From Rhizoclosmatium globosum (Eukaryota; Chytridiomycota; Chytridiomycetes; Chytridiales; Chytriomycetaceae): 64,000 nt of DNA. The notes under the pieces were generated by a model. It did not search any database. It saw only the letters and a program-made list of their open reading frames with translations, and had not been told where the DNA came from. The DNA is taken from assembly GCA_002104985.1 (NCBI GenBank), contig MCGO01000067.1, forward strand, positions 1-64,000. Reading direction: 5' to 3'. Shown here in pieces: positions 38,115-57,524 of the stretch (positions are counted from its first letter, which is position 1; the number at the start of each line of letters is the position of its first letter). The translations under genes and the position numbers were made by a program.

Positions 38115-40956
38115 ATGATAGCTCTTCGCTCACAAAATATGCAACATTTGGTCATTTCATTGATAGCGGCTCTTGTAATTCCAGTGATGGGGGTATCTAT
38201 TCCCAAGATGGCAAATATGAAAGGTGGAGGAGCAACATTTCCTTTACAGCCCTATTCTTCGGCGATGCTTGACTTCGGCCAAATGTATAGTGAGTATACT
38301 AATACACCATGTGGAATTACTAATATTAGGAATTTAAGTGGGTTTCCAGGTCACGCCATACATTGAATCCAATTCTGTGGCTGGTCAGCAGGGCGTGGCG
38401 GCAGGACAACTCAACTGGGCTGGAAGCGACGTCGGAATACGATCTGATTTGGTGAGCAAGGGGCTCGCAGTTCTTCCGTCCATCGCTGGTGGCTTGCTTA
38501 TCACGTACAATATTCCTGGAATCGCCGCACCTCTGAAGCTTAGTCGAAAAGTACTACCTCGAATCTTCGATGGCAAAATCAACACTTGGAAAGACCCTCG
38601 GATTCTGAAAGACAATCCGTTTCTCGCGAACTACTCCAGTCAAGCCAGAATTCGAGTCATTCGCCAAAGTCCTACGTCTGGGGCGACAATTAATCTGCAC
38701 TCCTACTTGACTCAACTCGATATTGAAAACGGAGTTGTTCCTTCACCCTACCTGAACTCATCATACTTACAGTCCCTTAATACTTCTCTCCTTGCTAAAA
38801 ATCCAGCGGCAGCAGTCATAATGATTGGTGCTATTCCAAACACAATCACCTATTTGAATCAATTTAATGCCAAGGAAGCTATAGACGCGCCAGATTCAAC
38901 TGTAGATTCAGCGTGGCTCCAACACATCGATGGATCGTTCATCAATTGGTCGGTCAAGTCTGTAAAGGCCGCTGTGGATGGAATTCCTGAGGCCATAATT
39001 CAGAACAGATCTCTTCAAACCGGAATCGACGCGCTTAATCTCCAGCTACAGGTGCTTATCCACTTTCGTTAATTTCAAACTTTGTCATCAATCCAAAGAA
39101 CGTGTCAGCCAGTTCAGTGGAAACAATTGCGACCCTAAAGTTCCTTTGGCTATTTCTTACAACTCCTAGTGTAAGATTTTACCTCAATTTTGACGTTCCT
39201 TTCTAACCACAAACTCATCAGTTTGCGACAAAGTTCAACTTTGTTTCGTTGTATAACACCTCTGCTGGTCTGCAATCACTCAACTACCTCAAAACAATCA
39301 CGTATTCGGATGGTCTCACACCAGTTTATGGTCAGTCTATTTGCGACGTTGATGTGGATGGAAGTTACAAGAACCCTTGTATTCATGGAACCTGTGGAGA
39401 TCCTTACCCTTTCCAGGAAGCAACCGAAGTATGTATCTGCGAATTCGGATATCAAAATGTCCACAAAACGACTGTTCTGAACCTACTCCGATATTTGTTC
39501 CTGGTTTCATAAGCAAGATTCAAATCGCCCTATTTGTGATTGGCCTCATCATTGTTCTTGGTATTGGATATTTCATAGTCGTGAAGAGAAACGAGCCAGA
39601 TATAAAAGCAATGTCTCCGTACTGTTGTCTCTACATCTTGGGAGGATGCTTACTAGGTACAATTGGAGTCCTCACTCAAGGTCTTTCAACATCAGATGCA
39701 GTGTGTCACGCAAATGCCGTGCTTCCCGCCATTGCGTTTGGTATGATCTTCAGTATGATTCTTGCAAAAGCGATTCGAATCTTTTTGATCTTTGGATATG
39801 CCAAGATTGCTCGTTCCCGACTTCTGAAGGATGATTTCTTGATTGCCTGTTGTTCGATCATCATTATTGTGGAAGGAGTGTTTGCGGACAGGTTCCTCGA
39901 TGTTTCTGAGATTGAACCTGCATTGCTATCATTTGAAGGAACGACAGATACAGTTTGGGATTGTGCAGCCTCACCTGAAAATGCGGATACCGCGAATAGA
40001 TTATTCGGTGGACTGATTGGCTTCAATGCTATTATTCTTGCACTTTGTATCGTTATGGGACTATTGACAAGAAAGGCGAGCGAAAAATTCGACGAAAGTA
40101 AGAAAGTAAGTGTAGTGGTTGCCATTAGCACTCTGTTTGTGGTACTTGACCTGGTATGTTGATAACGAAACCAGAACAAATATAAAACTAAGACAATTTG
40201 CTTCAGGGAATCAACTTTGGAATACCGCAAAACACACAAACTATGTACAGTGTTCGTGGATTATTTGATTCGATCACAATTTTCATCATATCCACTTCGA
40301 CTCCCGTGATTCTGTTTTCCAAAGCATTTGGCTGGGATAACAAGAAACAGCAAGGAAACATGTCTCACAACACTAGCGACATACATTCATCACATACGGA
40401 CCAACACGATGGCCTTGTCAGAACTTTTATGGTACGGACACACTTGTTTCCAAACTTAAATAATCTGATTCAACTTTCATTAGTTCCACACAGGTCTTAA
40501 ACTCAATCGACCCACTTCGCTGTGGAAATCAGCAGTATTTATGGTGATGCCCGACCTTGATATGCTCATCATTCTCAGCGAAGGAAACAATGGAACCTAC
40601 ACATTCTCGCAATCAAATATCAAGATTCAAGAAAAAACTACAAAGGCTGCTAAATCTAGGACTGAAGAATGTATTGAGTTTTTGCTTGGATCCGCTAAAA
40701 CAAGCTACTTGGTTGAGTTCCCGCATAAGGAGAAGATGGACGAATTTCGCTCTCTGAGATCGCAGGCGGGTATGAAAAAAGCTGAGCATCCAGCAAGTTC
40801 TGGACCGGTAGTATGAATCGATTAGATCGAGGTTCACAATCTGGGTTGAATGCGAACAGCCTGGGCCGTACATCAAACAAAGAAAACGATGAAACCAAAT
40901 CAAGCACAAATCTTGCTTCATTTGCTGTGTCGCGTTTGAAGAAGGGAGAGATTTAA
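38115..40956 (+). CDS. PstS-EGF-7TM receptor, paralog 1 (frameshifted)
   Basis: First of three related receptors. Exons: 38115-38289, 38339-39170, 39222-40153, 40207-40431, 40494-40956. A signal peptide (LVISLIAALVIPVMG) precedes a PstS-type domain: GGGATFPLQPYSSAM, NWAGSDVGI, LPSIAGGLLITYNIPG, LKLSRKVLPRIFDGKI, VIRQSPTSGAT. Next a cysteine-rich EGF-like module (CDVDVDGSYKNPCIHGTC), then a 7TM class-C-like domain (FVIGLIIVLGIGYFIVVKRN, RIFLIFGYAKIARSR). The cytosolic part has LNRPTSLWKSAVFMVMPDLD and VEFPHKEKMDEFR. One-base losses near 39045 (CC), 39472 (AAAA) and 40800 break the frame; the first two sit in homopolymers and paralog 3 shows the unbroken version, so they may be errors. The C-terminal tail beyond the third break resembles that of paralog 2. 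Confidence 0.85.
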
Positions 40957-41109
40957 TCTCTCACTTTATGGGTTGTTTTTATCCAAATAAATCAAGTTAA
41001 GAATCGCATATATATCACATATTAATTAGTAATTGGGGTCTTTGCGAAGCTTTGGCTCGAAACAATGGATCCAATCGCTGATTGTTCAAAACGCGTGTTG
41101 TAAACGTCT

Positions 41110-43802
41110 ATGAAACAAATGAAGAGCATATTTACGTTGAGCATCCTGGGTTTTTTGGCTTTGGTCAATGGTCAAACCGATAGCGACGTCATAAGTTCAG
41201 GAGGAGCATCTTTTCCAGAGGAAGCATATTCTGCAGCAATGACCGACTTTGGAGCCACATATTCTTCCGAATATCGATTGAAACTGTACGACACGACTGA
41301 TTCCACAACAGGCCAGCGAAATGTTGTAAACGGACAGTACAATTGGGGTGGAAGTGACTTTGGTGTTAATTCCGCCCTTACTACACCCAATGCTCCTATT
41401 GTGGCTTTGCCGGCCATTGCTGGTGGTCTTGTTATCACATGCAATCTACCTGGAATCAAGGATCAAGTAAAACTGTCGCGTACGGTGCTTCCAAGAATCT
41501 TTGACGGAACAATCACACTTTGGAATGACCCTCTACTTATCCGCGACAATCCGTTCTTGGCGTTCTCAACTCAACTCAAGCCAAAATTAAAGTGATTCAA
41601 AGAAGTGCTACCTCCGGCTCCTCAAAGGCTTTGATTTCAATTCTGAAACTTATGGATGCGTCGACTGGTTTCAATCCGTCGCCATACAGTTCTCCAACAT
41701 TCCAGTTGAACGTTGCAAATTCGGCGACTGCTAAAACTACGATAGCTGCTGGAATTATGGTGCGGGGTTTCCTTTTACAATCACGTACTTGAATCAGATT
41801 GAAGCTCAAGATGCGGTAAACACTGTTGCATCCACAACTCAAATGGCTCTCGTTCAGCATATTGATGGATCCTTTATCGCGTGGTCACCAGCATCTGTCA
41901 GAGCTGCAATTTCCAACATTGATGCCAACAAAATCCAGAGCTTGAATATGTCTACTGGGAGTGTTGAGGCATTTGATATTCCAACAGCTGGGGCTTATCC
42001 CATCACCATGGTTTCAAACTTTATCATCAATCCTCAGCACATCTCATCAGAACCACACGTTACAATTGGAACTTTAAAATTTCTATGGATGTTTCTTCAA
42101 AACCCAAAGGTAACATTCAAAAGAAGTTCAGTGATTTTGTCTAAAACTATTGTAAAGTACGCCCAGCTTTATAATTTCTCATCATTGTACAACACAACTC
42201 TCGCAGCGAAAAAATTGAGCTACCTCCAAACCATCTCACTGGACGGAACTACCCCAATTTACGGCCAATCAGTCTGCGACGTCCAAATCGATGGAACCTA
42301 CAAAATACCCTGCGTCCACGGAACTTGCAAAGACCTTCTCCCATTCCAAAACGCGGCTGTCCAATGTCAATGCGATACGGATACCAAAACATCCATCAAA
42401 GCGATTGCAGCGAAAAACCCCGATATTCATGCCTGGTCCGCGACAGCAGCCCGGTTCGTGTTATTCGGATTCGGGATTTGGTTTTGATGTGGGTTGGGTA
42501 CCGAGTCTTTCGAAACGCGACGAGCCAGATATAAAAGCCATTTCGCCGCCATGTTGTTTGTGGATTCTGGTTGGTTGTATACTTGGAGTCATATCCATCA
42601 TTATTCAGTCTCTTTCGACGACGGAGTCTGTGTGTCAAGCAAGCGCCGTGATACCCACTTTGCATTCGGAATGGTGTTCAGCATGATCTTCTTCAAAGGG
42701 TTCCGTATTTACTTGATCTTTGGGTACTCCAAGATTGCGCGGTCTCGTTTCCTGAAGGATGACGTTTTGATTGCTTGTTCTACTATTGTAGGAATTATAG
42801 ACGCGAGTATTGCTTCGTGGTCTGTCAGTTCAAACCAAATTCAACCCATATTGAAGACGTTTACTTCGTATTCTGATACGTTTTGGGATTGTGCGTCAGG
42901 TTCTCAAGATCCATCACAGCCGCCGAGGCTTATGCTGTTTTGTTTGGATTCAACGGACTCTTGTTGCTGCTGTGCATCATTATCTCAATACTTACAAAGA
43001 AAGCAAGCGGCAAATTCAACGAAACCAAGAACGTCGGGGCTGTTATATCACTGAGCACCATGTTGATTGGTCTGAATTTGGCAGTGACGTTTGGGCTTTC
43101 TCAAAGCAGTCCATCGATGTATCACGTAAAGGGTCTAGTTCTTTCTGCTACCATGTTTATCATTTCCATCGTGTCGCCACTTACGTTGTTTGCAAAGGCT
43201 TTGAAAGGAGCTGTTGGAGAAAACATGTCATTTGAGAGCAGTGGTGGCTTGACTTCAGGTGATCTGAATGACGGACTCGTAAAAGCCTACTTGGTGAGTA
43301 ACTTGTTTGGTTTTCATTCACCAAACTGATGATGTTCACTCCACAGTTTCACACTGGCTTAAAATTGAACCGCCCAGCAGCCTTTTGGAAATCTGCGGTT
43401 CTCATTATCATGCCAGATCTTGATATGATCATAATTCTCAGTGACGGAAACAACGGAACTCACAGATTCTCAAAGACATTCCTTCAAGTCCAACACAAAA
43501 CAGCTGCCTCTGCAAAGAAACAAGAAGAAGAGTACCTTGAAATTACCGTTGGTTCTGCCAAAACGTGCTACGTTCTTGAGTTTCCTCATAAGGAGAAAAT
43601 GGATGAGTTCCGGGCCTTGAGAACGTCGATGGGAATGAAAAAGCTGGGTAGCAACAGTAGAGGGATGGCATCACAAATGCTTGCTGGGAGTAGAGCAGAC
43701 TTAGCGGGCGCCAGCTTGAAGGGGGACGTCTCTCAAAGAATCGGAACACGAAGTTTGGGTAATCTTGCAGCATCGTACGCCAAAAATCATGATCTTTCAT
43801 AA
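41110..43802 (+). pseudogene. PstS-EGF-7TM receptor, paralog 2 (many frame changes)
   Basis: Same architecture as its neighbours: signal peptide (FTLSILGFLALVNG), PstS-like domain (SSGGASFPEEAYSAA, NWGGSDFGV, LPAIAGGLVITCNLPG, VKLSRTVLPRIFDGTI, VIQRSATSG), EGF-like module (CDVQIDGTYKIPCVHGTC), 7TM (SMIFFKGFRIYLIFGYSK, FGFNGLLLLLCIIISIL) and the cytosolic domain (AAFWKSAVLIIMPDLD, LEFPHKEKMDEFR). At least six single-base frame changes are needed (near 41585, 41757, 42373, 42410-42470, 42652, 42925); TM1 is hard to read in any frame. It lacks two introns present in the other copies. It is either a decaying copy or the most error-rich part of the assembly. It follows paralog 1 by 150 bases in tandem. 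Confidence 0.7.
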
Positions 43803-43930
43803 CTTATTTTCCTATTTATTTAATAATTATTCAATCAATACTAATCAATTTCATTTAATAAAGATCATTGGAATTTTTGATTGAAAATAGTTTATTTTGA
43901 ACCAGGTTCTGCTCGACAAAGTAAAAATGC

Positions 43931-45485
43931 TTAATGGAAACGCGTGATGTCTCTGCCAAAAATCCAAGTTAAAAACCAATACATTGGAATCATAATCTTG
44001 TTTTTGGTCGAGACACTCATTGTAAAGTAAGCGGATCTCCAGAATAACCATGCACTGATTCCAGACTTTGGAACAAGTTCCTTCAAAGTATCAATCACGT
44101 CGCTTGACTCAGTGGTTTTTGAGGTAGACTTGGGAGAAGACATGTCGACCACGGCTCTCCATTTCCCAATGTACGCCAAACTACCCATATGATTGTATTC
44201 GAATGGTTTTACACCGACTGATTCGAAAGTAGAGAGACCGTCCGGGCTTGCCTTGATTGACTTGTTGAGAGCTAAATTGATTGTTTATGGTCAGTGTCAC
44301 ATTAGTACCTTCAAAAAAAACAAAGACGGACAGACGTACCTTTCAATAGCCATGCACCTTTTTGGTTTGCAACTTGAGCAGTACAAGGCAATTGACGATC
44401 TTGGATTGTAGCACAGTCTCCCAACGCATAGACACGATCAATAGGTTTCAGATTTGCGTCCAAGACTCTACAATGATTGTCGGTGATAATTCGCCCCATA
44501 GTTTTGTCGCGTGCCAATGCACTTGAAGTAAGATCCTTGACCAAATCAACCGGTCCAACACCAGTAGACCACACCAACATGCCGTAATCCACCTTTGTCC
44601 CACTTTGAAGCACGAAATGGGACTTATGAACTTCTTTGACACCTTCACCTAAACGGAGGGTGATTCCCTTTCTGGTGAAACGGTCACGCGCATAGGTACT
44701 CAGTTTTTCGTCGAAAGCCCAAGAATCTTTTTGCCAACGTCATAGATTGTCATTGAACATGGGGCTTCAAGTTTGGATACAGTTTGAGAATGTCTTCAGT
44801 GATAAAGTCGTGGAGTTCCTGTTGGATGTTGATGTGTTTTAGAGAGGTGTGTTTTTTGGCTGACGAGTGACAAGTGAAAACCGTCCATACCGCCATAAAT
44901 TCAACACCAGTGGGCCGCCTCCGACGACGGCAAAGTGAGTAGCTTTGAGCGATCGGACTCTGAAATGTTTGGTTGAGAGGCATGTTCAAAGCACTCCATG
45001 ATCTTTGAACGAATCTTTCTCGCGTCAGTCACGTCCTTCCTAGATTAAATAAAGAGGTTAGTTACTGTTCAAAAATGGCGCACAGGACTCACAGGAAGAG
45101 AGCGTGTTCCTTGACACCTGGAATGTTGAAAGTATTCGAGACAGCGCCAGTAGCAATCACAAGCGAGTCGTAGTTCACGGCAAACGAGTCGCCCTTGAAA
45201 GCCTCCAGGGCCGAGGCGCATTCAATCGATCTGTTGAGCAAGTCGATTCTTGTGCACGTTGCCTCGAAGAAAGCGAGGTTCGGCACGCGCTTGACTGGCT
45301 CGGTGACGCATCTGAATTCGAGAGTTCCGACGGCGGACGACGCGAGCAACGGCGTGAATGTGAAGTGGTTCTTCGGCGACACGACAGTCACTTCGAACAA
45401 AGACGTGTCAAGGCCCTGGATCAGTCGGAAGCCCGCCCAGCCTGACCCGAGAACGACGAGTCGGTGCGCCGCGTGGCTAGAGCGC
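43931..45485 (-). CDS. alternative NADH:ubiquinone oxidoreductase (NDH-2)
   Basis: Single-subunit, non-proton-pumping NADH dehydrogenase of the inner mitochondrial membrane. The N-terminal FAD-binding Rossmann motif is LVVLGSGWAGFRLIQGLDTS (GxGxxG), then SPKNHFTFTPLLASSAVGTL, typical of NDH-2. YDSLVIATGAVSNTFNIPGV follows. The second nucleotide fold and DRVYALGDCATIQDRQLPCT with AQVANQKGAWLL are the conserved FAD-contact region. The C-terminal membrane-association segment ends GRDITRFH at 43931. At least five short introns interrupt it. The first exon is not clear: an acceptor CACTTTCAG at about 45490 precedes the fold, and a targeting-peptide exon upstream was not identified. Its 3' end converges on receptor paralog 2 (about 130 bases apart). 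Confidence 0.87.
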
Positions 45486-45842
45486 CGCTGAAAGTGACAT
45501 TGTTGCGCTTTTTGGTGAAGAGGTTCAATGATTCACCTTGCTCTTTTCCACCGACCTCACTCCCCGATGACAAATTTCAGCCCCCAGTAATTCGAATCAC
45601 ATCTGACGTAACACTCTTTACTCTATCAAGAACGACAATGCGACAAATGAGTACAGCACTCCTACAGAGCAATACACTGACACAAGCATCAACGGCAAAA
45701 ACTCTAACCTGCTCCCAAATACAAACGGATGAACCAACTCCGCATAAATATAGAGAGGTCCCATTCCGTACACATACAATCTTTCAAGAATATTTAACTG
45801 AAGTCCTCGTTCCGACTTGTTTGCGGCCGTTCTATTGAAACT

Positions 45843-47615
45843 TTAGCTATAAATCCCACACACACCAAGACTTACTCTTTCGTTAGGAATGCCAAAAAGT
45901 GTGATGAGGTCATGGCGTACAATAAAAACACGATCACTTTGGTTGGGGTTTCTGGGGACAGAGGGAAATTTGAGTGCTGCTGTTAAAACAAGTAACAGCA
46001 TACCAGTCGCTTTGAAAATCAATGGAAACAATGACAAATATCCTGCACAACTCAGAATATAAAAGATTTGTGCGTGGCGCCTTGTTCTTGTTGCAACGAG
46101 ACTAATTTCAAAATATTAACTTGTGTCACAACACAAACCATGTCACTATCTTACCTCAAAGGAATAAGAACAAGCAAAATCGCTTTCTCGTGGACATGCC
46201 AACCAAATAAGAATGAACTGAAACCACAGAGAACCAAAGAATCAACAAAGGCATCTTTTGTAGGCCGCTTCCACAAACTGTACAAGCTGGGCTATTTCCA
46301 TACAAAATAAGTAAGAACATTCCTGACCATTATATTGTTGCGCAACAAACCAGCTGGAAAACCACAGTCAGAATCAAAGTATGAATAGGCTCAATGTTTG
46401 GCAAGACTGCAAACACCGAGTTGCCAACCAGGCCTCGCGTCAATGACGGCACCTCTCCAAGTTCAGCACCTTTTCCAGCGAGTTTGAGGCCTATGTTCAT
46501 TGTTAATTAAACTGTCAATGTCATATCCCTTTCATACCCTGAATGGCAACACGATCCGCAAAGGAATACAGTGCCCAAAAGTTGGGTGCCCAATACGCGT
46601 GACACAATCCTCGTTTGAACGGAAACAGACGCGACAACACTTGTGGGATGTGTTGAATGAACGGACCAAATGATACCAAGAATACGGAAATAACAGAGAT
46701 TCCAATCTTGACGAATCGCAGGAACGAGAAAGAGACTGAATTTGGTTTGAATTTCGTTGCTGGTGAATTCAAAGTGCAGAGAGCAATGTCGGACAGAACT
46801 TACACGATCCATTCGTTTCGATGAAGCAATATCGACTTAACAAGTACACGAAATAGGCTGGCGCTTGGTACAAGTAAATGTGCTTGAAGTTCATGGTGAC
46901 GGCAAACAGGACTCCCCCAAGAAGGTACCGTTCCTGCACATCGATCAGCGTCCATAAGATACATACTACAGTAATCCAACCTTCCACAATGCATGAATGG
47001 AAAGCAACTGGATCCCATACAAGAACCCATTATATTGAAAATGGATATTGTCCACAAACAACAACCCAGGACTCAGAAACACCAATGCCGTCAGTATGAT
47101 CCTCTTTCTCGCATCTGCAACATCCGCAAAGATGCTAACTCATCCAGTCAGTTCACTTCCCATCATCCAACCCAAAACCACAAACACAAACCTCACAACA
47201 GCGTAAAACAAAACCGCCTCCGTGACCACAACACTCGCCCGCTGAAACAAGATCGTAGCATCACTCGCATACCCCAAGTTCTCAACCACAACCATCGCGG
47301 GATCAACCCACTTCGCAATATGTGACATTGTCCATTCGAACCAGGCAAAGAAGGGCGGGTAGTCCAGCGTCCATTCAGATGTCTCTTCGTAGTACCATTT
47401 GGAGAGCGGGAGGGAGTTTGTGAGGGCGAGCCAGTTGCGGTGGACTTCAAAGTCGGTTGAATGGCTGGTTTCGATAGACGTTGTTCAGAGATTGGAGAGA
47501 CGAGTGGGGGATGCAGTCGCTTACTAGGAGTAGAAGAGGAGAGTTTTGAGGATCGCGGATGTCAGGAAGAGGACGGCGTTGGGACCTGTAGGAACGTGGA
47601 TATGATAGTGCTCAT
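45843..47615 (-). CDS. ALG8: ALG8-type dolichyl-P-glucose glucosyltransferase
   Basis: Adds the second glucose to the lipid-linked oligosaccharide in the ER lumen (GT57). From the proposed ATG at 47615, a first helix ([17 protein letters not shown]) leads to [40 protein letters not shown] and [17 protein letters not shown]; these are the strongest ALG6/ALG8 signatures. [19 protein letters not shown] and [20 protein letters not shown] follow, then [20 protein letters not shown], which fits ALG8 rather than ALG6. The C-terminus shows [16 protein letters not shown] hydrophobic sequence and stops at 45843. One base seems missing right after the initial codons (near 47580). About eight introns are present. 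Confidence 0.87.
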
Positions 47616-47639
47616 TTCAACAAAAAACAAAGATTAAAC

Positions 47640-48499
47640 GGAGTTAGAGCTTTGAACTCATTTTATAATCCCTTCTCGCTGCTTTTCGTACCTATTTAAT
47701 TTGAACAAGAATAAGCCAAATTTCTGAGTTGCTAATTGACTCAGAACCAGCATCATAACAATTATAGAATGCTGTTTATTTATTGTAAATACTTGTCTGC
47801 GAGGAAGTAAACCCCTGAATGTTGAAAGTTACAGGAAAGAGTTTCTTCAGTGTTTGCTAATTCATGGAATACATTGGACAGCAAAATCAAAAGTATAACT
47901 TCCAGGAGAACTCACACTCCAGGGACTCTGGAGATACCCACTCCATGGATGGCAACGGATCTCATTCCTTCCTCCCGTATAGCAGAGGGTATATGGCGTT
48001 TTAAGCAAGTCATAGGATTTTTTGCCCAAGTCGTTGAGGATGGAGGAATGTTTTCTCCAAGCTCTGAGATAGCCACAGTGTGGGCGACTTTTTTCAGGAA
48101 TTATCTACAGATGTCTTTTTCATTGATGGTTTTGGGGAACTCGGGCATTTTGCGGTTCATCAACAATGCTCAGATAGAACCCTTTGTAAATTGCAAGTTC
48201 ATTGTAAATTATCAGACTCAAGCGTTTTTCATGCGATCAACGCAAAAGAGGGGCAGTAATAAAGATGGAAGGCAGGGATAAAGCGCGTGAGGCACAATAA
48301 ATAACCTGCTGTGTTTGATTAAATAATATTTATTGTCAGTTCTTCTGAGGGTGTCAGCGCTATAAGTAGAAAATGATACTTCATTAATCCAATTCTCACC
48401 AAAGACTCAAAAGCTCTATTATGACATATGTAAAGCATCGGCAAGTGTTGCTTTGTTATGACTGGGAGTGAAAAAAAATCTTGTCACAGCCATCTCCAC
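47640..48499. other. intergenic region with one unsupported open frame
   Basis: Contains an open frame of 143 codons at 47850-48281 (+) without recognisable domain or splice signals and with unremarkable composition. I see no convincing gene. The right part leads into repeat R4. Confidence 0.35.
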
Positions 48500-48885
48500 G
48501 CGCACTTTGATTGGCTGTGAATTTTGCACCCCATGTGCAAACCAAAACCGCGTATAAAAGAAACGCGTGGCCAGGCGAGGAAAGATCCAAAAATCTCACC
48601 TTCAGACTTCAAACTTGATCCCCATCACAGCAGAGATGCCCCCCCTCGTTTGGACATAGTCGTAAGCCGAGCAGATTGAAATAGACTATTCGGTGGACTG
48701 GTTAGTGTGCAGGTCCCACACCTTGTCGAACGAGTATTCCTATGCTGTGATTGCCCCAACTCCCCGCCCACTCACACTTTTAAACTTTATAACACTCGAG
48801 AGTTTTTAATGCCGCGGCTTTTGATTTGCTCAACGCTTTTCTCTCAATAAAAAAAGAATAAGAATGATCTTTTCAATACTGGTTT
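48500..48885 (+). repeat. promoter/poly(A) module repeat R4
   Basis: Has GATTGGC (inverted CCAAT) at 48509, CCCCATGTGCAA shared with R1 upstream of its TATA box, GTATAAAAGAAACGCGT at 48552, CCAAAAATCTCACCTTC, a middle unrelated to R1-R3 and the 3' block GAGAGTTTTTAATGCCGCGG with CGCTTTTCTCTCAATAAAAA (about 48835-48855). It lies about 410 bases upstream of CSN4 in the same orientation. The first ATG gives an 8-codon frame only. Confidence 0.65.
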
Positions 48886-49294
48886 GTTTTTTGGTGTGAA
48901 TAGTGGTATCGCTTCCGAGTCCACACTCCTGACAGGCCCTGACGTCAAGTTAACGAAGAATCTTTCCTAGTTTCTTACCTCGTGAAAGCCTTCGACTCAG
49001 GGCGTCTGGATCTCTGACCTCAGGGCGAAACATTAAACCCTGTGACTCGCAACTTGAAGACTATATAACTCGATTAAACTGACTTCTCGATTCATTTTAG
49101 ATCGTTGTTGATCAGCTTCAGTTGGAGGTGTCGCCCTGAGATCTCAAATCGAAACCAACTCCCTCCCTCCCCTTCCTCCTCATAAATATAATCAGAAGCT
49201 AGGAGTCTCAATCTTTGAGCCATCAGTGTTCATAACTTTTCTGTTTTAATTAAGAAGAATGATAATTGTTATATATCTAGTTTTTCCCATCAAA

Positions 49295-50651
49295 ATGGAC
49301 CGCGAAGCTCTTGCAGCATCACTCTCGACTTCCCTTGCATCGCCCACCGTTTCCGGCCTCCAAAAACACGTAACGCTTGTACTCGATGAAGGACTCGGAC
49401 TTGTTCTTTCGCGAGCTGCGCTTGGCGACTTTGTGTCATCGTTTACATCGAGTTACTCGTCGTTGTTGAGTGGCGATTCGATGGCAGACGAGGCGGCGGA
49501 GAAGACGCTTTCTGACGCGGTTGAAGTTTGGCGATTTGTTCTTGAACGAACGAGTGGAAGACAAGTTGCCTTTGAGGAGCAGGTACTTATTATCACTGGT
49601 TTAAAACAACTTCAACTAAGAACGAGAACTGCAACAACAGATCTCACTCGCCCGATTCAGTCTCGCGGCAATCCTCGAATTCAACGAAGAATGGTCTGAG
49701 GCCGCCAAGGTCCTGATGCAGATCCCACTTGACTCGGGCCACAGACACGTTGACGACCTCCAAAAGGCTGCTGTCTATGTGCGCATCGTACGCCTCCTTC
49801 TCGAAGACGAGGACTCGGTCTCGGCGGAATCCTACTTGAACAGAGCATCGCTGGTTGTCAACAAACCGGAATTCGAGGCAAACAAGTCAGACGAGGCTCT
49901 GGTCCTCACCCTGCAATTCAAGGCCGCCCAGGCCGTCTCCTCGACTTTAAGCGCATGTTCCAACTGGCTGCCACAAAGTACCACCAGCTGTCGTACTTGG
50001 TGCAGATGGCTGAGTCGAACGTATACGTGTCTCGTTCAAGCCGTTGTCTGTGCCATCCTGGCTCCTGCCGGTCCTGGCCGTTCTCGTTTGCTCGCCACTC
50101 TATGTAAGTTGAAGTTCGAGACATCATTGCATGGACTTAAACCCCAAAATAATTATTCAGACAAGGACGAACGGACTCGTGAATCTCCTGAATGCTCCAC
50201 ACTCTACTACCCAATCCTCTCCAAAATGTACCTAGACCGTATCCTCCGTGTCTCGGAAATTGCTGAATTCCGTGAAACATTGCGTCCACATCAACTTGCG
50301 CGTCTCAGTGACGGTATGACAGTCCTTGACCGTGCCGTCATTGAACACAATGTCGTGGCGGCCTCCAAAATTTATACAAGTATCAAGTTTTCGCAGTTGA
50401 GTGGTCTTTTAGGAGTACCCACTGCTGAAGCCGCTGAAAGTGTCGTTGCAAGAATGGTTGGGGAAGGGAGAGTGGATGGAACTATTGATCAGATGGAAGG
50501 CATGGTGTATTTTGAGGAGAGCACGTCCAGTAGTGCTGATGCCATGTCCCTTGGTATTCGTGGAGTCTGTGAGCAAGTCGATGGAGTGGTGGAGGAAGTA
50601 ATGAACCGCAATCCTGAATGGGTTCAGCGGATTCTGAGTGCTAGTGCATGA
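49295..50651 (+). CDS. CSN4: COP9 signalosome subunit 4 (PCI domain)
   Basis: Subunit of the CSN complex that removes NEDD8 from cullins. Three exons: 49295-49582, 49641-50103, 50161-50651; the middle intron (50104-50160) happens to be open in frame but its GT-AG removal restores LATLYKDER, the family sequence. Conserved strings are ISLARFSLAAILEF, ILAPAGPGRSRLLATL, PILSKMYLDRILR, FRETLRPHQLARLSDGMTVLDRAVIEHN and the PCI winged-helix FSQLSGLLGVPTAEAAESVV. Between about 49935 and 50030 the best homology (LLDFKRMFQLAATKYHQLSY) is in another frame, bounded by two compensating one-base changes. The start at 49295 is chosen over an upstream ATG (49259) because it begins the conserved N-terminus. 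Confidence 0.9.
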
Positions 50652-50918
50652 AATTAGTGTGCTTGAAATATATGAAAATAGCGATGTATCTATGCATTTT
50701 GAAAATATTAGATACAACGAATTACATTAATGTGATACTAAAAAATAGTTCCTTTGCAAATCCCTTTCAGTATCGATGAGAGATATACATTGGCGAGCAA
50801 GTGTTTAAGGGTCCAATGGATTATCTCTGGGATTTTCATGGGATTATCTTTGGAAAATCCTTTCGGTTGATTCCGATGCTTTGTCGGGGATCTACACAAT
50901 TCAAAAAAAAAAGACCTA

Positions 50919-53631
50919 ATGAGCGTAGTGACCTTCGCTCTCTGCATTTTGGTGGTGATCGTCAGCGCAGACCCAAAAGATGCCATCGTTAAAGGAGGAG
51001 GCTCCTCATTTCCGCTCCAGCCATATTCTGCTGCCTTGACCGACTTTAATCAGATTTATCGTGAGTATCATCGAAGCAAATGTTAGTTAACCCAATATGG
51101 TCAAACAGAGGGCGTTCAAGCAGCTCCCTACTTATCTGGGACTTCGATTTCTGCTCAACAAAGTGTAACTTTAGGTACATTAAACTGGGCCGGAAGCGAC
51201 GTTGCAATACAGCCTGGAAATCCAGGAATCATAGCCCTTCCAGCAATCGCTGGAGGAATGGTTGTAGTATACAACCTACCAGGAATCTCCACACGAGTCA
51301 AACTGAACCGCAAGATACTTCCCCGTATTTTTGACGGAACTATCGTTGAATGGAATGACGCTCGTATACTTCAAGACAACCCTTTTTTAGCCAACATAAC
51401 GTCCAGAATCCGAATTGTTCGACAAGGACCAACGTCTGGAGGAACGATTAACGTTTCCAAGTTTCTTGCTCAGATTGACATACAACATGGAATCAACCCA
51501 TCTCCATTTTCAAATTCCAAGGTCCTGCAATCGGTTGCAAACTCTCTCCTTGGAAAGAATGCTCCTGCTGTTAGTATTATGGTTGGGGCAATTCCATACA
51601 CAATTGGATACCTGAATCAGCTTGATGGTCAAGATGCTATAACCACCGCCGGTTCCACTGTTCAATCTGCGTTGATTCAGCACCAAGACGGTTCCTTTGT
51701 TGGCTGGTCCATGGAAGCCGTAAATATCGCTGTTCGAAGCATCTCAACAGATACAGCTCAAACCTCATCAGTTCAAGATAGCAACCTTATCGCATATGAC
51801 TCTCCAGCGCCTGGCGCATATCCTCTAGCTGTTATTTCAAACTTTGTCATAAAGCCGACGAACATTTCAATGAATGTTATGGAAACCATTGCAACTCTCA
51901 AATTTCTGTGGATATTCATTCAAAACCCTCTGGTAACCATTTTTTTTCTTCATGAATCTAAGCAATTACCTTAAAACTCTAAACTCATGATATTTTTTAG
52001 TATGCAACCAACTATACGTATGGTTCCATCGCAAACACGGCTGCAGGCTTGAAGACTTTGAACTATCTCAAGACCATCACATACCCAGATGGAGTCACTC
52101 CAATCTATGGCCAATCAATCTGCGACATTGATGTCGACGGAACCTACAAGAACCCCTGCGTGCACGGACACTGTATTGATCCGTACCCATTTCAGCAACC
52201 GTTCCAGGTCTGCATCTGCGACTACGGCTACCAAAACGTATACAAAAACGACTGCTCAGAACCAACACCCTTAATCATTCCTGGCTTTGTGAGCAAAATC
52301 CAAATCACTCTTTTTCTCCTCGCATTAGTGATTGTTCTCGGATTTTCATACCTCATTGTCACGAGGCGAAATGAGCCAGATGTAAAGACCTTTTTGGTTG
52401 GATGCTTGGTGGGATGTGTCGCAGTGTTAACACAAGGCCTTTCTACATCGGACGTTGTGTGTCGCGCGAATATTGTACTTCCTGCCGTCGCATTTGGAAT
52501 GATATTTAGTATGATTCTCGCAAAAGCGGTTCGAATATTCCTCATCTTTGGGTATTCCAAAGTTGCACGGTCTCATTTTTTGAAGGACGCCTTTCTCATT
52601 GCTTGTTGCACAGTGGTTGCGATCGTTGAAGGAGTTTTGGCGTGGCATATGTTTACTGCAGCCAATATACAGCCAGCCTTGGCAACCTTTGATCAGTCGT
52701 CAGACACAATTTGGGATTGTGCGGCTCCAGCCTCTGATACTGATACTGCAAATCAAGAATTTGGTGGACTCATAGGATTTAATGCGATAATATTGGCACT
52801 GTGTATTGCGATGGGGCTTCTTACCAGAAAGGCGTCGCAAAAGTTTGATGAAAGCAAGAAAGTTGGCATTGTAATTTCGATCAGTACGTTGTTTGTAGTG
52901 CTTGATTTGGTGAGGCGTTAGACATGAGAATCATTTAATACCAACTATTTGATATAGGGAGTGAACTTTGGTATTCCTCATACCACGCAGAGCATGTTCT
53001 ACATTCGTCGATTGTTTGACTCCATTACTATATTTTTGATTACAACAGCTACCCCTGTTATTCTATTTTCTGCCGTTTTGGGATGGGGTAATGGACACCA
53101 TGGAAGTAACTTGTCCCACACAAAGAGTGAAGTCGACTCCGCCCACCTAGATCAAAATGATGGCCTTGTAAGAACATTTATGGTAAGGCATCACTAACAG
53201 TCTTTTTTTTTGTTATTAATTGTAAATACTGCTAGTTCCACGTTGGCATGAAACTGAATCGTCCGGCATCTCTTTGGAAATCCACAGTCTTCCTTATCAT
53301 GCCAGACCTAGATATGCTCATCACTCTCGGAGAAGGCAACAATGGAACATACACTTTCTCGCAATCTAACATCAAGATTCAAGAAAAGACCACAAAAGCC
53401 GCGAAAGCTAAAACCGAAGAATGCATCGAACTCTTGCTCGGCACTGCAAAGATAGCCTATTTGGTGGAGTTTCCACACAAGGAAAAAATGGACGAGTTCA
53501 GAACATTACGTTCTCAATCTGGAATCAAGAAATCATCGCTTGGAAACTCATTGACTCTGACAACAGCGACAGCGACATCTCGTTCTGAAGGGAAGTCATC
53601 CCAAGCCGGTCTCTCTGTTCCGAATAGATAA
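50919..53631 (+). CDS. PstS-EGF-7TM receptor, paralog 3 (intact, 831 aa)
   Basis: Intact member of the family. Exons 50919-51060, 51109-51932, 52001-52909, 52958-53182 and 53236-53631 are all in phase. Residues 1-17: signal peptide (VTFALCILVVIVSA). About 22-345: PstS-type domain with GGGSSFPLQPYSAAL, NWAGSDV, LPAIAGGMVVVYNLPG, VKLNRKILPRIFDGTI, VRQGPTSGGT and MVGAIPYTIGYLNQ; residues matching the phosphate contacts of bacterial PstS (S/T-F, D, R, S-G) are kept. About 360-410: EGF-like module with six cysteines (CDIDVDGTYKNPCVHGHC to NDCSEP). About 420-690: seven helices, class-C-like (NEPDVK at the TM1 exit, RIFLIFGYSKVARSH). About 700-790: conserved cytosolic domain (SLWKSTVFLIMPDLDML, VEFPHKEKMDEFR), then a Ser/Thr-rich tail. 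It lacks about 8 residues at the TM2 start compared with paralogs 1 and 2. Confidence 0.92.
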
Positions 53632-53760: not shown

Positions 53761-55699
53761 ATGGAGGTCCGAACGACAAGCTTTGTGATACTGTCTGTGG
53801 CTCTGGGTCTCTTTGCCTTCCTGCATCCGTATGCGCACATGTTCAGTCGCTGGAGCCCAGGACTTGACAGTTGCGGCGATCCTCTGAACATTTCGGGGAT
53901 AGTTCCGTTCGCCGATCGCTTCAGCTGTGTGTTTTTCAGTGCGGCGGACGAGGTTTCGAGTGGTCTTGTTCCGTCTTTGTCGTTTGAAAGCGGCAGTTGG
54001 ACGACGAGTGCGCTGGTTTGGGACTGGTCGCTGTTCTCGTCGCTCGGACTTCCGGTTGCTGTGTTTGCTGCCGTTGAAGGAACGCGGAGCAGGTGGCTGG
54101 GCAGTACGGTGTCGTTCTTTGTGCTGGTGACACTGGCTCAGTTGGTGGTGAGTTCGGTGTTTGTTGGTGTCGTTGATAACTGAGCACTGACGCTATCACA
54201 AAGACTCTGTCTGTTGCGATTCCCCTGCTCTGGCTTCCATTCATCTTTGCCCTTTCAGCTGCTTCCTCAAATCTCACTCGAAAACTTGTTCTGCCGCCCG
54301 TTGAGCGAATCAACAGAATTGGGCTGGCAGCAGTGATTCTTGTTCTCATCTCTGCTTTCCTCGACTGGACACCATCATCAGAATACTATTACACAAAAAC
54401 TATACTCGCCGAATACGTTCCGTCATTTCTGCCACTCTTGTGGACCTCATATTCCTTCTTTTGGAAGCCTGAACGTCATTCAAATACTCTCATCAGTGCT
54501 CAAGCCTCATTCGCTCGAACAGCAAAACTATACAATTTGATGGCAGTGGCGAGTTTTCTAGAGTTTTCAATGAAGTCGCTGATTCCATACGCAATCAAAT
54601 CAAGTCCAACCGACTCAATTCCTCCTCTATTGAGCCTCATGAAATCAGTGCCCACGAAAAACAATCTAGTGCTTTGGTTCTTACTCTGGGAAGGAGCGTG
54701 TTTGACAACTGCAATGAGTTTGTTTGTGATTCATGAGGCTTGGATTCTTGGTGAGGATCTGTATTTTCATTGAGATGGCATTATTAACAAATCGCTTTAT
54801 TAGATTACAATCCGCTGTCATCCGTCCTTTCATTCTTGGCACGCAGTGCTGTGATCGGGCCTGGTGCTTCCTTAATGGTCTTTGCTGTGTGGCGAGAAGA
54901 GCGAATCCTGAATCGACTGATTCGAATCGTAGAAAAGGCGTCAATTGAATTGGAAGAACGTGCTTTGTTAGATTCTTTCCACTCTGCCGCGGAATTCTCT
55001 ACCAGCCCATCGTCACCACTACAAGCAGCTCGCGTTGAAATATCTGCACAAAAGCAGTCGAGCTCGTTGAGGAAAAGAAAATCTAAGGCTAAAGCTGTTT
55101 CCTTCCAACAACAATCAGACCCAAAGTCTCAGTCTCGGTACCAAACGCCCAACCCTGCCACAGATGTACTCGTCACCACAAACACAGCCACATCACTTAA
55201 TCCTACTAGCACTGTTTCTACCACTGAAATTGAAATTCTCTTTGCCAGACCGTCATACATTGAAAGGTTACGAAGGATTACAGTGTACTTGATTTTGACA
55301 GCATTCCTGCTCTCCCTATCAATGTGGTATCTAGAAGTTGGATATAATATTCAATACTGCGATGCATCATCTACAATGAATTCGCACTTGTTTCCAACAT
55401 GCGTCCCTTGTCCAAATCAAGCCATTTGTAATCAGGATCAAGTGATTGGATGTAAAATCGATGGCTATTCAGTATTTGGAGATGAAGGATTTGGGCCATT
55501 GGGCTCATACATTAGCCTTGGGCCAGTTTGTTTACCAGACTCAGATGAGATGGTTCAGCCCCATTTGAATCCTAGAATCAAAGGTCGCACTTTGTCTCTT
55601 CGCAGAAGATTTGAAGTTGTAGTCATGGATGGGTGGTTGAATTATGTATGGTTTTGGATTGTACGAACGAGCGTTGAAGTATATCACCTGGTTCTCTGA
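53761..55699 (+). CDS. polytopic membrane protein continuous with a MAN1/Src1-type C-terminal domain
   Basis: Starts with a signal-anchor (FVILSVALGLFAFLHPYAHM) and continues as a multi-helix protein (VILVLISAFLDW, LYNLMAVASFLEF, LVLWFLLWEGACLTTAMS). A frame change or intron is needed near 54150-54190. A good intron (about 54752-54805) joins HEAWIL to DYNPLSSVLSFLARSAVIGP. The frame then runs without a stop through a Ser/Lys-rich linker into PSYIERLRRITVYLILTAF and a cysteine-rich segment (TCVPCPNQAICNQDQVIGC, then LGPVCLPDSDE), which resembles the MSC domain of inner nuclear membrane MAN1/Heh/Src1 proteins. Either this is a fusion, or two adjacent genes are run together through an unseen exon boundary in the linker (about 54960-55230). 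Neither half has a sure function. Confidence 0.55.
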
Positions 55700-55818: not shown

Positions 55819-57524
55819 TCAGTAGTCATCTGGTTGGAATCCAAAGTTGGCAACCAAGAACGCCCTCATGTCAAGAGATTCGCTCGGAATATTAGTCAGC
55901 TGCAGAGTTCCAAACTGGCTGTTTCTTCCAAACACGAGCAGGTTCCCAAGAGATTTGGACCACTCAAACAAAGACTTTGTGTGTGCTGTGGGTTCGCAAT
56001 ACCCATTCCCGAAAACAAAGGCTTCCATTTCCTCAAACGTGAGAATATCTACTGTTGGAGTCACACCCGACAAATCCACAGAGACCGTCAAGTTCTTGTA
56101 CGTCATTCTTTTCTCCACCAACAACATTGAAATATCACTTCGCTTGTTTTTCACAGTCTCGAGCATGAGTTTGATGAGGGCCTGGTAACTTCCAGACGAC
56201 CGCGAGTCTCCCATTCCTTTGAGGTTTTCAGTCTTTGCACCACATACGTTCTTGTGACCGCCCGTCTTCCAATCTTGGACTTGACACTCTCTACCGCAAT
56301 ACACTGTTTTGCACGACGCACACTTTTTGAATTTTTCACCGGTTGCAGCGTCTTCTACTCTCATGCAACGGCCACAAAGTTTAAGTTGCTTTGTGCTAAT
56401 TGTGAGGAAATCAGTGTACATTGTTTTGATAAACGGCTGGGAAGGCGAAGACTTGTTCTTTTCAATGAATGTCTTGATAGACGCGAGAAGAGCCTCATTT
56501 GCTTCGAACTCCTTCAAAAACGAATTTTAGGTGGACACATTGGCCGAACCTTGCTATCATAACATTTGCTGATTCGATCACATTTGGTTCCGCTTTCGTG
56601 CCAAGGGCTTCAAAGAGTTTCAGTACCGATTCCCACAGACCGCATTGGATTGTTTGAATTGCTGAAAGTGCAGTTTCGGCCCTCAGGTTCAGCTCTGTCA
56701 AGAAACTGTTGGTGAGGGAGCCAAAGATAGATTCACAATAATGACCGGAACACTTTTTTGCGGATAGTTGATCGTTTATCAAACGATTAACAACTGGAAT
56801 AAGGTTATGCTCATCTCGAATGGCAGCGAGAAAAGCATTGCAGACTTCATCATCATCTTGAGGGAATTGAATGGCAGCGACAAGATCAAGCAGGTGAGCG
56901 AAGTAATAGCTATTCTTTCCATTCGAGAAGGGCAGTTTGAGTTCTGAGAATATGACTTCAAGAAGTCGCAGTCCCACGTCTTTTGGGATTTCCGAGTATT
57001 GATAGAGAAGAGTGACAAATCCAGCCATAAACAATCTTCGTGATTGAGAAGATTGAGTGCCGAGTAGTGAGCTTTCCATCAAGACAGGCATCGTGGTTGT
57101 ACGTGCACCAAAGTAGTCCATAGCATCTACGAACGCAACAAGTGAGCTGTTTTCCACACGCGCATCGAATTCGTGGCTGGACAAGTTCATGACCAGACCG
57201 AGAAAGCACTCTCAGGCCTCGTGCGCACGCGGATTCGTCTCTTGTTTCGCAATGACCTGTTTGCAGATGTAATCCAACTTGGGCGCAATTCATCAGCGCG
57301 ACAAGAGAAAGATGCTGGAACTTGGTTGGAACAAGGACAAAGAGAACGTCGAGGCCGCCGTGAGTCACGAGCCGCTTCGTGAACGACGCGTCGCCGCACA
57401 GGTTCATCAGCGCATTCACAGACGACACGCTTGGACTGCGTTTGACTGTTGTCAGGAACTGCGGGAGGTTCGACCGTGCGAGCCGCGTCTGTCGCTGGAG
57501 CTCTTCAATGATTGCTGGATTCAT
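55819..57524 (-). CDS. MYND zinc-finger protein with helical repeats
   Basis: Begins MNPAIIEELQRQTRLARSNL and continues as an alpha-helical, armadillo-like protein (SVSSVNALMNLCGD, SLVAFVDAMDYFGA, PKDVGLRLLEVIFSELK). A MYND finger lies near 56390-56220: CGRCMRVEDAATGEKFKKCA, SCKTVYCGRECQ, W and HKNVC give the full C-C-C-C-C-C-H-C set. A conserved C-terminal part follows (VDILTFEEMEAFVFGNGYC) to the stop at 55819. One frame change near 57200 and an intron near 56520 join the three open pieces. MYND fingers usually bind proline-rich peptides; no SET domain is seen. The exact partner is unknown. Confidence 0.75.

Follow-up and report, generated by a model that had tools for sequence, protein, structure and literature searches.

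Binding domains of bacterial type have been reported before on class C G protein-coupled receptors (GPCRs); what is said here of earlier papers refers to the excerpts consulted. Krishnan et al. (2012) list the Pfam domains PBP_like_2 and 7tm_3 together in the glutamate-family receptor SPPG_06488 of the chytrid Spizellomyces punctatus, and other type II binding domains in Allomyces (PMC3251606). In 2016, fusions of 7tm3 with PBP_like_2 or SBP_bac_1, identified as single coding regions by transcriptome, were described from Plasmodiophora brassicae, where four were called phosphate transporters and the class was thought unique to that species (PMC4815078); in the same year type II domains, likened to sugar-binding proteins, were found on almost half of the class C receptors of gut fungi (PMC5168858). 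We analyzed a stretch of 64,000 nucleotides (hereafter the window: positions 1 to 64,000 of the forward strand of contig MCGO01000067.1, our C385, assembly GCA_002104985.1) from the genome of Rhizoclosmatium globosum (56.9 Mb in 420 contigs), a chytrid saprotroph with zoospores. Three paralogous genes in the window code for receptors in which a domain of the kind of the bacterial phosphate-binding protein PstS is followed by a six-cysteine EGF-like stalk, the seven-helix domain of class C receptors and a cytosolic PH-like domain. We consider it likely that the proteins act as G protein-coupled sensors for small anions, with divergence in ligand among the paralogues.

A sequence-only reading of the window had known of no described receptor with such a layout; that statement is not supported, since PBP_like_2 with 7tm_3 had already been listed (PMC3251606, PMC4815078) and type II domains were on record on class C receptors (PMC5168858). 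The receptor kind is already known, no functional test of it appearing in the excerpts, and what is added here is the fold evidence, the EGF-like stalk with the PH-like tail, the tandem family and the variation of the pocket, for which no earlier description was found in the open-licence literature; of the papers found there on R. globosum and GPCRs, none concerns class C by its title or the start of its abstract. SPPG_06488, compared here by its description, is likewise a chytrid glutamate-family receptor with an N-terminal PBP_like_2 domain, but the excerpt gives it as a one-line listing without a test of the PstS fold, a pocket analysis, a stalk or a PH-like tail. The Plasmodiophora fusions, also compared by description, join PBP_like_2 to 7tm_3 and four of them were likened to phosphate binders, but they come from a protist rather than a fungus and were read as transporters. 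Neither SPPG_06488 nor these fusions appeared among the matches of our two family homology searches, each of which scored about 8000 candidates; this absence carries no weight. The gut-fungal receptors share a type II domain on a class C receptor in zoosporic fungi, and some have an EGF domain, but their binding domains are likened to those for sugars and the EGF domain goes with pectin-lyase-fold receptors (PMC5168858). Metabotropic glutamate and GABA-B receptors also couple a flytrap to class C helices, the former through a cysteine-rich stalk, but the flytrap is of type I and the stalk has nine cysteines and is missing in GABA-B (PMC5168858). The Dictyostelium Grl receptors are class C proteins with a bacterial-type binding domain, BMP (PMC10445921), which, however, belongs to the Pfam clan of type I domains (PMC3251606). 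In their excerpts, PMC10445921 has PBP_like_2 only among its abbreviations, PMC12842992 counts glutamate-class receptors of chytrids without naming PstS domains, and PMC12716839 makes no mention of periplasmic, PBP or chytrid.

The evidence for both folds is clearest in gene 3 (50919..53631; like all features below, on the plus strand unless stated). Its splice model has five exons (50919-51060, 51109-51932, 52001-52909, 52958-53182 and 53236-53631) and four GT-AG introns of 48-68 nucleotides, and its 831-residue translation, as in the sequence-only reading, runs without stops. From the N-terminus, the protein consists of a hydrophobic signal peptide-like stretch (residues 1-17, 50919..50969, recognized from a hydropathy peak over residues 1-19), the PstS-type domain (about residues 18-346, 50970..52072), the six-cysteine stalk (52121..52255), the seven-helix domain (about residues 422-670, 52298..53092), the cytosolic domain in the last exon (residues 701-800, 53236..53535) and a low-confidence tail. 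Pfam recovers PBP_like_2 over residues 20-298 (E 2.3e-7; 31.3 bits, the cut-off being 27) and 7tm_3 over residues 422-662 (E 6.4e-19); both domains also occur in the relatives P0002, P0005, P0006, P0008, P0010 and P0011, and in 10 of the 13 proteins from one homology search. A profile of 14 family members (alignment A1) matched solved PstS chains at 3.6e-23 at best over positions 21-269 and E. coli PstS (1ixh) at 5.1e-21 over 21-357, while its next stretch, 350-676, matched metabotropic glutamate receptors (best 1.2e-15) and also GABA-B2; all of these stand among the 60 best-scoring of the 103 sequences matched. The PstS and class C folds are further confirmed by fold comparison and by a structure model made from a relative. 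The comparisons with PstS and 7tm_3 that had been suggested as a check confirm both assignments, and chance similarity was rejected on the Pfam and profile E-values of the two domains. The cysteine pair that joins helix 3 to extracellular loop 2 in class C receptors is represented by C476, invariant in A1, and C562, kept in at least 90% of it, which may form the bond here. The proteins combine the class C 7tm_3 domain with a PstS-type binding-protein fold of type II, which stands in place of the type I (ANF_receptor) flytrap; the latter is typical of animal class C members and is missing from other reported class C receptors too (PMC5168858).

Both folds lie in one polypeptide. In gene 3, exon 3 reads in a single frame from the closing part of the PstS lobe to within the sixth helix, and on contig C90, whose annotated protein is P0011, a stop-free frame of 727 codons extends from the middle of the PstS-type domain through the stalk and the seven helices to the end of the cytosolic domain. 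The order of parts is the same in the exons of genes 1 and 2, bearing out the earlier description of three paralogs, and in family proteins of Rhizoclosmatium and three further genera, Obelidium, Physocladia and Siphonaria (whose records carry NCBI's UNVERIFIED_CONTAM flag). We regard the receptor anatomy as nearly certain.

Gene 1 (38115..40816) and gene 2 (41110..43802) share this layout, and their PH-like exons (40484..40813 and 43347..43799) are 82% and 59% identical, respectively, to that of gene 3; both genes contain frame breaks, located away from introns in this assembly, which we left unmended. A further copy, gene 4, is found past the end of the window (C385, 68.7-71.2 kb, minus strand). 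Comparison with allelic copies on contig C7 bears on these breaks: gene 1 is 99.0% identical to C7:4-7k, with four single-base indels, in each of which the window lacks the base; gene 2 is 97.1% identical to C7:7-10k, with twelve, eleven of them likewise bases absent from the window; the PstS exon of gene 2's C7 allele is a single open frame of 381 codons. The PstS-type domain of gene 3 has no exonic indels relative to C7; in the region of loop 1 and helix 2 (52387..52392), however, gene 3 lacks 24 nucleotides in two adjacent gaps of 8 and 16, corresponding to eight residues. Because both the C7 copy and the closest protein, P0001 of Rhizoclosmatium sp. JEL0117, carry this segment, the product of 831 residues possibly lacks some of helix 2 and is unsuited to expression in its present form.

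Across the genome the family numbers 25 copies, partly in tandem. With nucleotide identity of roughly 95% or above as the criterion, they reduce to 12 sequence groups, since a large part of the assembly seems to contain two alleles. Several regions (C385/C7, C223/C53 and C90/C160, at 96-99% identity) apparently have both alleles assembled, and gene counts are therefore inflated. With at least 139 exon-level matches to 7tm_3 in the genome, the PstS-type receptors are a minority of its class C genes.

The stalk of gene 3 (C363, C375, C380, C393, C395 and C407, each invariant or kept in at least 90% of A1) has six cysteines in EGF spacing, C-x11-C-x4-C-x12-C-x1-C-x11-C. The cytosolic domain is folded like a PH domain, with seven strands and a C-terminal helix that closes them. 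Its exon has 25 exon-level matches in the genome, all inside PstS-type receptor loci and covering 23 of the 25 copies; therefore, in this genome and at that sensitivity, the tail goes with PstS-type receptors. To our knowledge, metabotropic glutamate and GABA-B receptors have no such tail.

We then examined the phosphate pocket. E. coli PstS contacts phosphate through eight residues, T10, F11, S38, D56, R135, S139, G140 and T141 (PMC10846223), among which R135 is the only positively charged one. At these places gene 2 reads S F S D R S G S, which alone among genes 1-3 is identical or has serine for threonine at all eight. Gene 1 (T F S D Q S G A) and gene 3 (S F S D Q S G G, its loop segment Q153-G159 at 51423..51443 aligning with PstS R135-T141) agree at six of eight, with glutamine in place of R135, as in gene 4, and alanine and glycine, respectively, in place of T141. 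The earlier statement that the phosphate contacts are largely kept consequently holds by count (6, 8 and 6 of eight in genes 1, 2 and 3) and fails at the arginine in genes 1, 3 and 4; conservation of the contacts as a whole was rejected for genes 1 and 3. Loss of D137 was dropped as an argument against phosphate: D137 is outside the eight contacts, and PstS mutants at D137 have been solved with phosphate. Among the 25 genomic copies, place 10 is serine or threonine in 24 (the exception, copy C368_135, has D, a doubtful letter), F11 and S38 are kept in all 25, D56 in 20 (copy C82 is scored as V, its frame beginning after that place) and G140 in 18, with S in four and Q in three; the partial copies C368:256k, C379:50k and C48 are included in these counts and gave N, G, V, Q and C around the loop. 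Serine at place 10 also occurs in PstS proteins of Synechococcus (PMC10846223). Judged from these alignments, conservation is high in the N-terminal half of the site, and the arginine-bearing loop varies by paralogue. Arginine is retained in gene 2, C90/C160 and C82, and in P0008 and P0010 of Siphonaria, P0009 of Obelidium and P0012 of Physocladia.

Three groups are made up by the receptor family, a second chytrid family with PBP_like_2, and nine rows treated as bacterial. Place 135 is arginine in all nine of the latter; as these rows are few and search-selected, and eight lack an organism name, we name no donor of the PstS domain. In a tree, one supported clade (96/95) contains all but one of the seven arginine rows of the receptor family; the exception, gene 2, stands apart, and two changes are needed. 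The second family (L042-L051 and L053, on contigs C46, C8, C380, C246, C157, C168, C7, C385 at about 129 kb, C388 and C56) joins an N-terminal helix and a PstS-type domain (phmmer to PstS, 7.3e-12) to a membrane part of many helices that matches no Pfam family, in an 857-codon frame in L042. Its clade is separate from the receptors and has relatives in Entophlyctis and Siphonaria. Six aligned rows have arginine (3), L (2) or S (1) at place 135, and L045 (by eye also L047) shows the bacterial R-x-D-x-S-G pattern. Some of these proteins may be better phosphate candidates than gene 3.

Taken as receptors, these proteins would bind a small anion between the two lobes outside the cell; lobe closure would then be passed through the EGF-like stalk, in place of a cysteine-rich domain, to the seven helices and on to a G protein, with the PH-like domain as a probable tether to membrane lipids or Gbeta-gamma. 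A partly tandem, expanded family would in this way have diverged at the pocket, and its members may guide zoospores or serve nutrient responses. The arginine-keeping copies would be the likeliest sensors of phosphate or a phosphate-like ion, and the glutamine copies, genes 1, 3 and 4 among them, probably bind another ligand or bind phosphate weakly; seven of them have lysine at the S139 place, so a positive charge may have shifted by four residues. We read the variation of the pocket as divergence of ligand, though some copies may have lost anion binding. Coupling to a G protein is the natural reading of the class C domain and is weakly supported by a large G-alpha set. As observations in their own right, PF00503 (G-alpha) has 141 exon-level matches in the genome, alleles included, expanded in clusters on contigs C366, C370, C310, C65, C16 and C394, and at C372:7272-16518 on the minus strand fourteen RGS-domain matches follow one another over 9.3 kb, several of them sharing frames, representing either a many-RGS protein or a tight cluster.

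Several points weigh against this reading or its parts. Place 135 is arginine in only five of the 25 copies (Q in 17, N in three, the N being in partial copies); S139 is kept in 11 (otherwise K 7, T 2, A 2 and V 3) and T141 in two, and the four C223/C53 copies are also altered at D56, S139 and G140. Likewise, eight of 13 aligned family proteins lack R135 (R 5, Q 6, K 1, L 1), the table comprising gene 3 and 12 of 16 family proteins and leaving out P0001, a near copy of gene 3, and P0007, P0013 and P0015, which have no loop or are not listed with a PstS domain. Since 17 of the 25 copies, genes 1, 3 and 4 among them, have glutamine for R135, phosphate sensing is at most a candidate function, and for gene 3 it is not favored. 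Further, the structure model was made from a relative and not from gene 3, and the window copies are possibly imperfect, given their indels and the 24-nucleotide gap. The EGF call derives from cysteine spacing, Pfam EGF being unmatched in gene 3 and sub-threshold on P0006 (E 0.19). The PH-like domain found no Foldseek match under 0.001 and its exon no Pfam family at E up to 10; the exon is also unmatched in two of the 25 copies, C82 and C247 (which lies at the end of a contig), and the proposed tether is argued from the fold. Finally, others have taken the PstS-7TM layout for a transporter (PMC4815078).

In that transporter explanation, the PstS-type domain would hand phosphate to the seven helices, which would carry it across the membrane, and the four Plasmodiophora fusions were so named from homology of the binding domain (PMC4815078). 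The helices, however, are those of a class C receptor by Pfam, profile and fold. Bacterial PstS works with a separate ATP-binding cassette (ABC) permease and ATPase, and no ABC part was found in gene 3 by Pfam; since the PH-like tail and the G-alpha set also fit signaling, if weakly, we judge transport very improbable. A more serious competitor accepts the receptors and denies the phosphate-like anion: the domain, which differs from bacterial PstS in its fusion to a receptor as well as in its pocket, might be a scaffold or dimer part, or might bind organic molecules or wall fragments. The loss of R135, S139 and T141 in 20, 14 and 23 of the 25 copies speaks for this, as do the changes at D56 and G140 in the C223/C53 copies and the sugar-binding likeness of the gut-fungal type II domains (PMC5168858). 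Yet the retention of S/T10, F11, S38, D56 and G140 is hard to explain without a small ligand at the PstS site, and the arginine persists in gene 2 and in P0008-P0010 and P0012 across three genera; we hold this alternative to be unlikely, though by no means negligible.

Two other explanations concern the gene models rather than function. The frame breaks of genes 1 and 2 and the gap in gene 3 could mean that the window copies are pseudogenes in decay, with active members of the family at other places in the genome. However, the C7 copies are 97-99% identical and provide the open 381-codon PstS exon of gene 2, the JEL0117 relative of gene 3 has the missing segment, and the indels are nearly all single bases missing in the window (4/4 and 11/12), a pattern that looks like assembly error; decay is accordingly improbable. 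That adjacent genes were joined by mistake, a case close to one that the sequence-only reading had named as refuting, is suggested solely by the bacterial relatives of one domain and the eukaryotic relatives of the other. The open frames across the junction in exon 3 and on C90, and the same order of parts in proteins of four genera, led us to reject it as extremely improbable. Receptors for small anions remain the preferred reading.

The neighbors of gene 3 in the window are ordinary: a PCI-domain protein with a match to the PSMD12/CSN4 N-terminus (49620-50651) and a protein matching the Man1-Src1p C-terminal domain (54788-55699). On the minus strand, a frame at 55819-56526 has a cysteine-rich stretch that by eye resembles a MYND-type zinc finger.

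More tentatively, and with considerable doubt, we suggest that the family senses extracellular phosphate or related oxyanions through a captured PstS domain, that tandem paralogues have been retuned at a single arginine (some with lysine at the S139 place) to different anions, and that the PH-like tail ties the receptor to membrane phosphoinositides. If true, this would be a PstS-based counterpart of the animal calcium- or glutamate-sensing receptors, in a field where extracellular phosphate sensing by eukaryotic cells is poorly settled. We are not aware of proof of a type II flytrap in any class C receptor. The arginine and glutamine paralogues of one array would allow their ligands to be compared directly, making the question testable. 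The family also shows that class C receptors have acquired a second type of binding-protein domain, and its PH-like tail widens the range of parts from which GPCRs are built.

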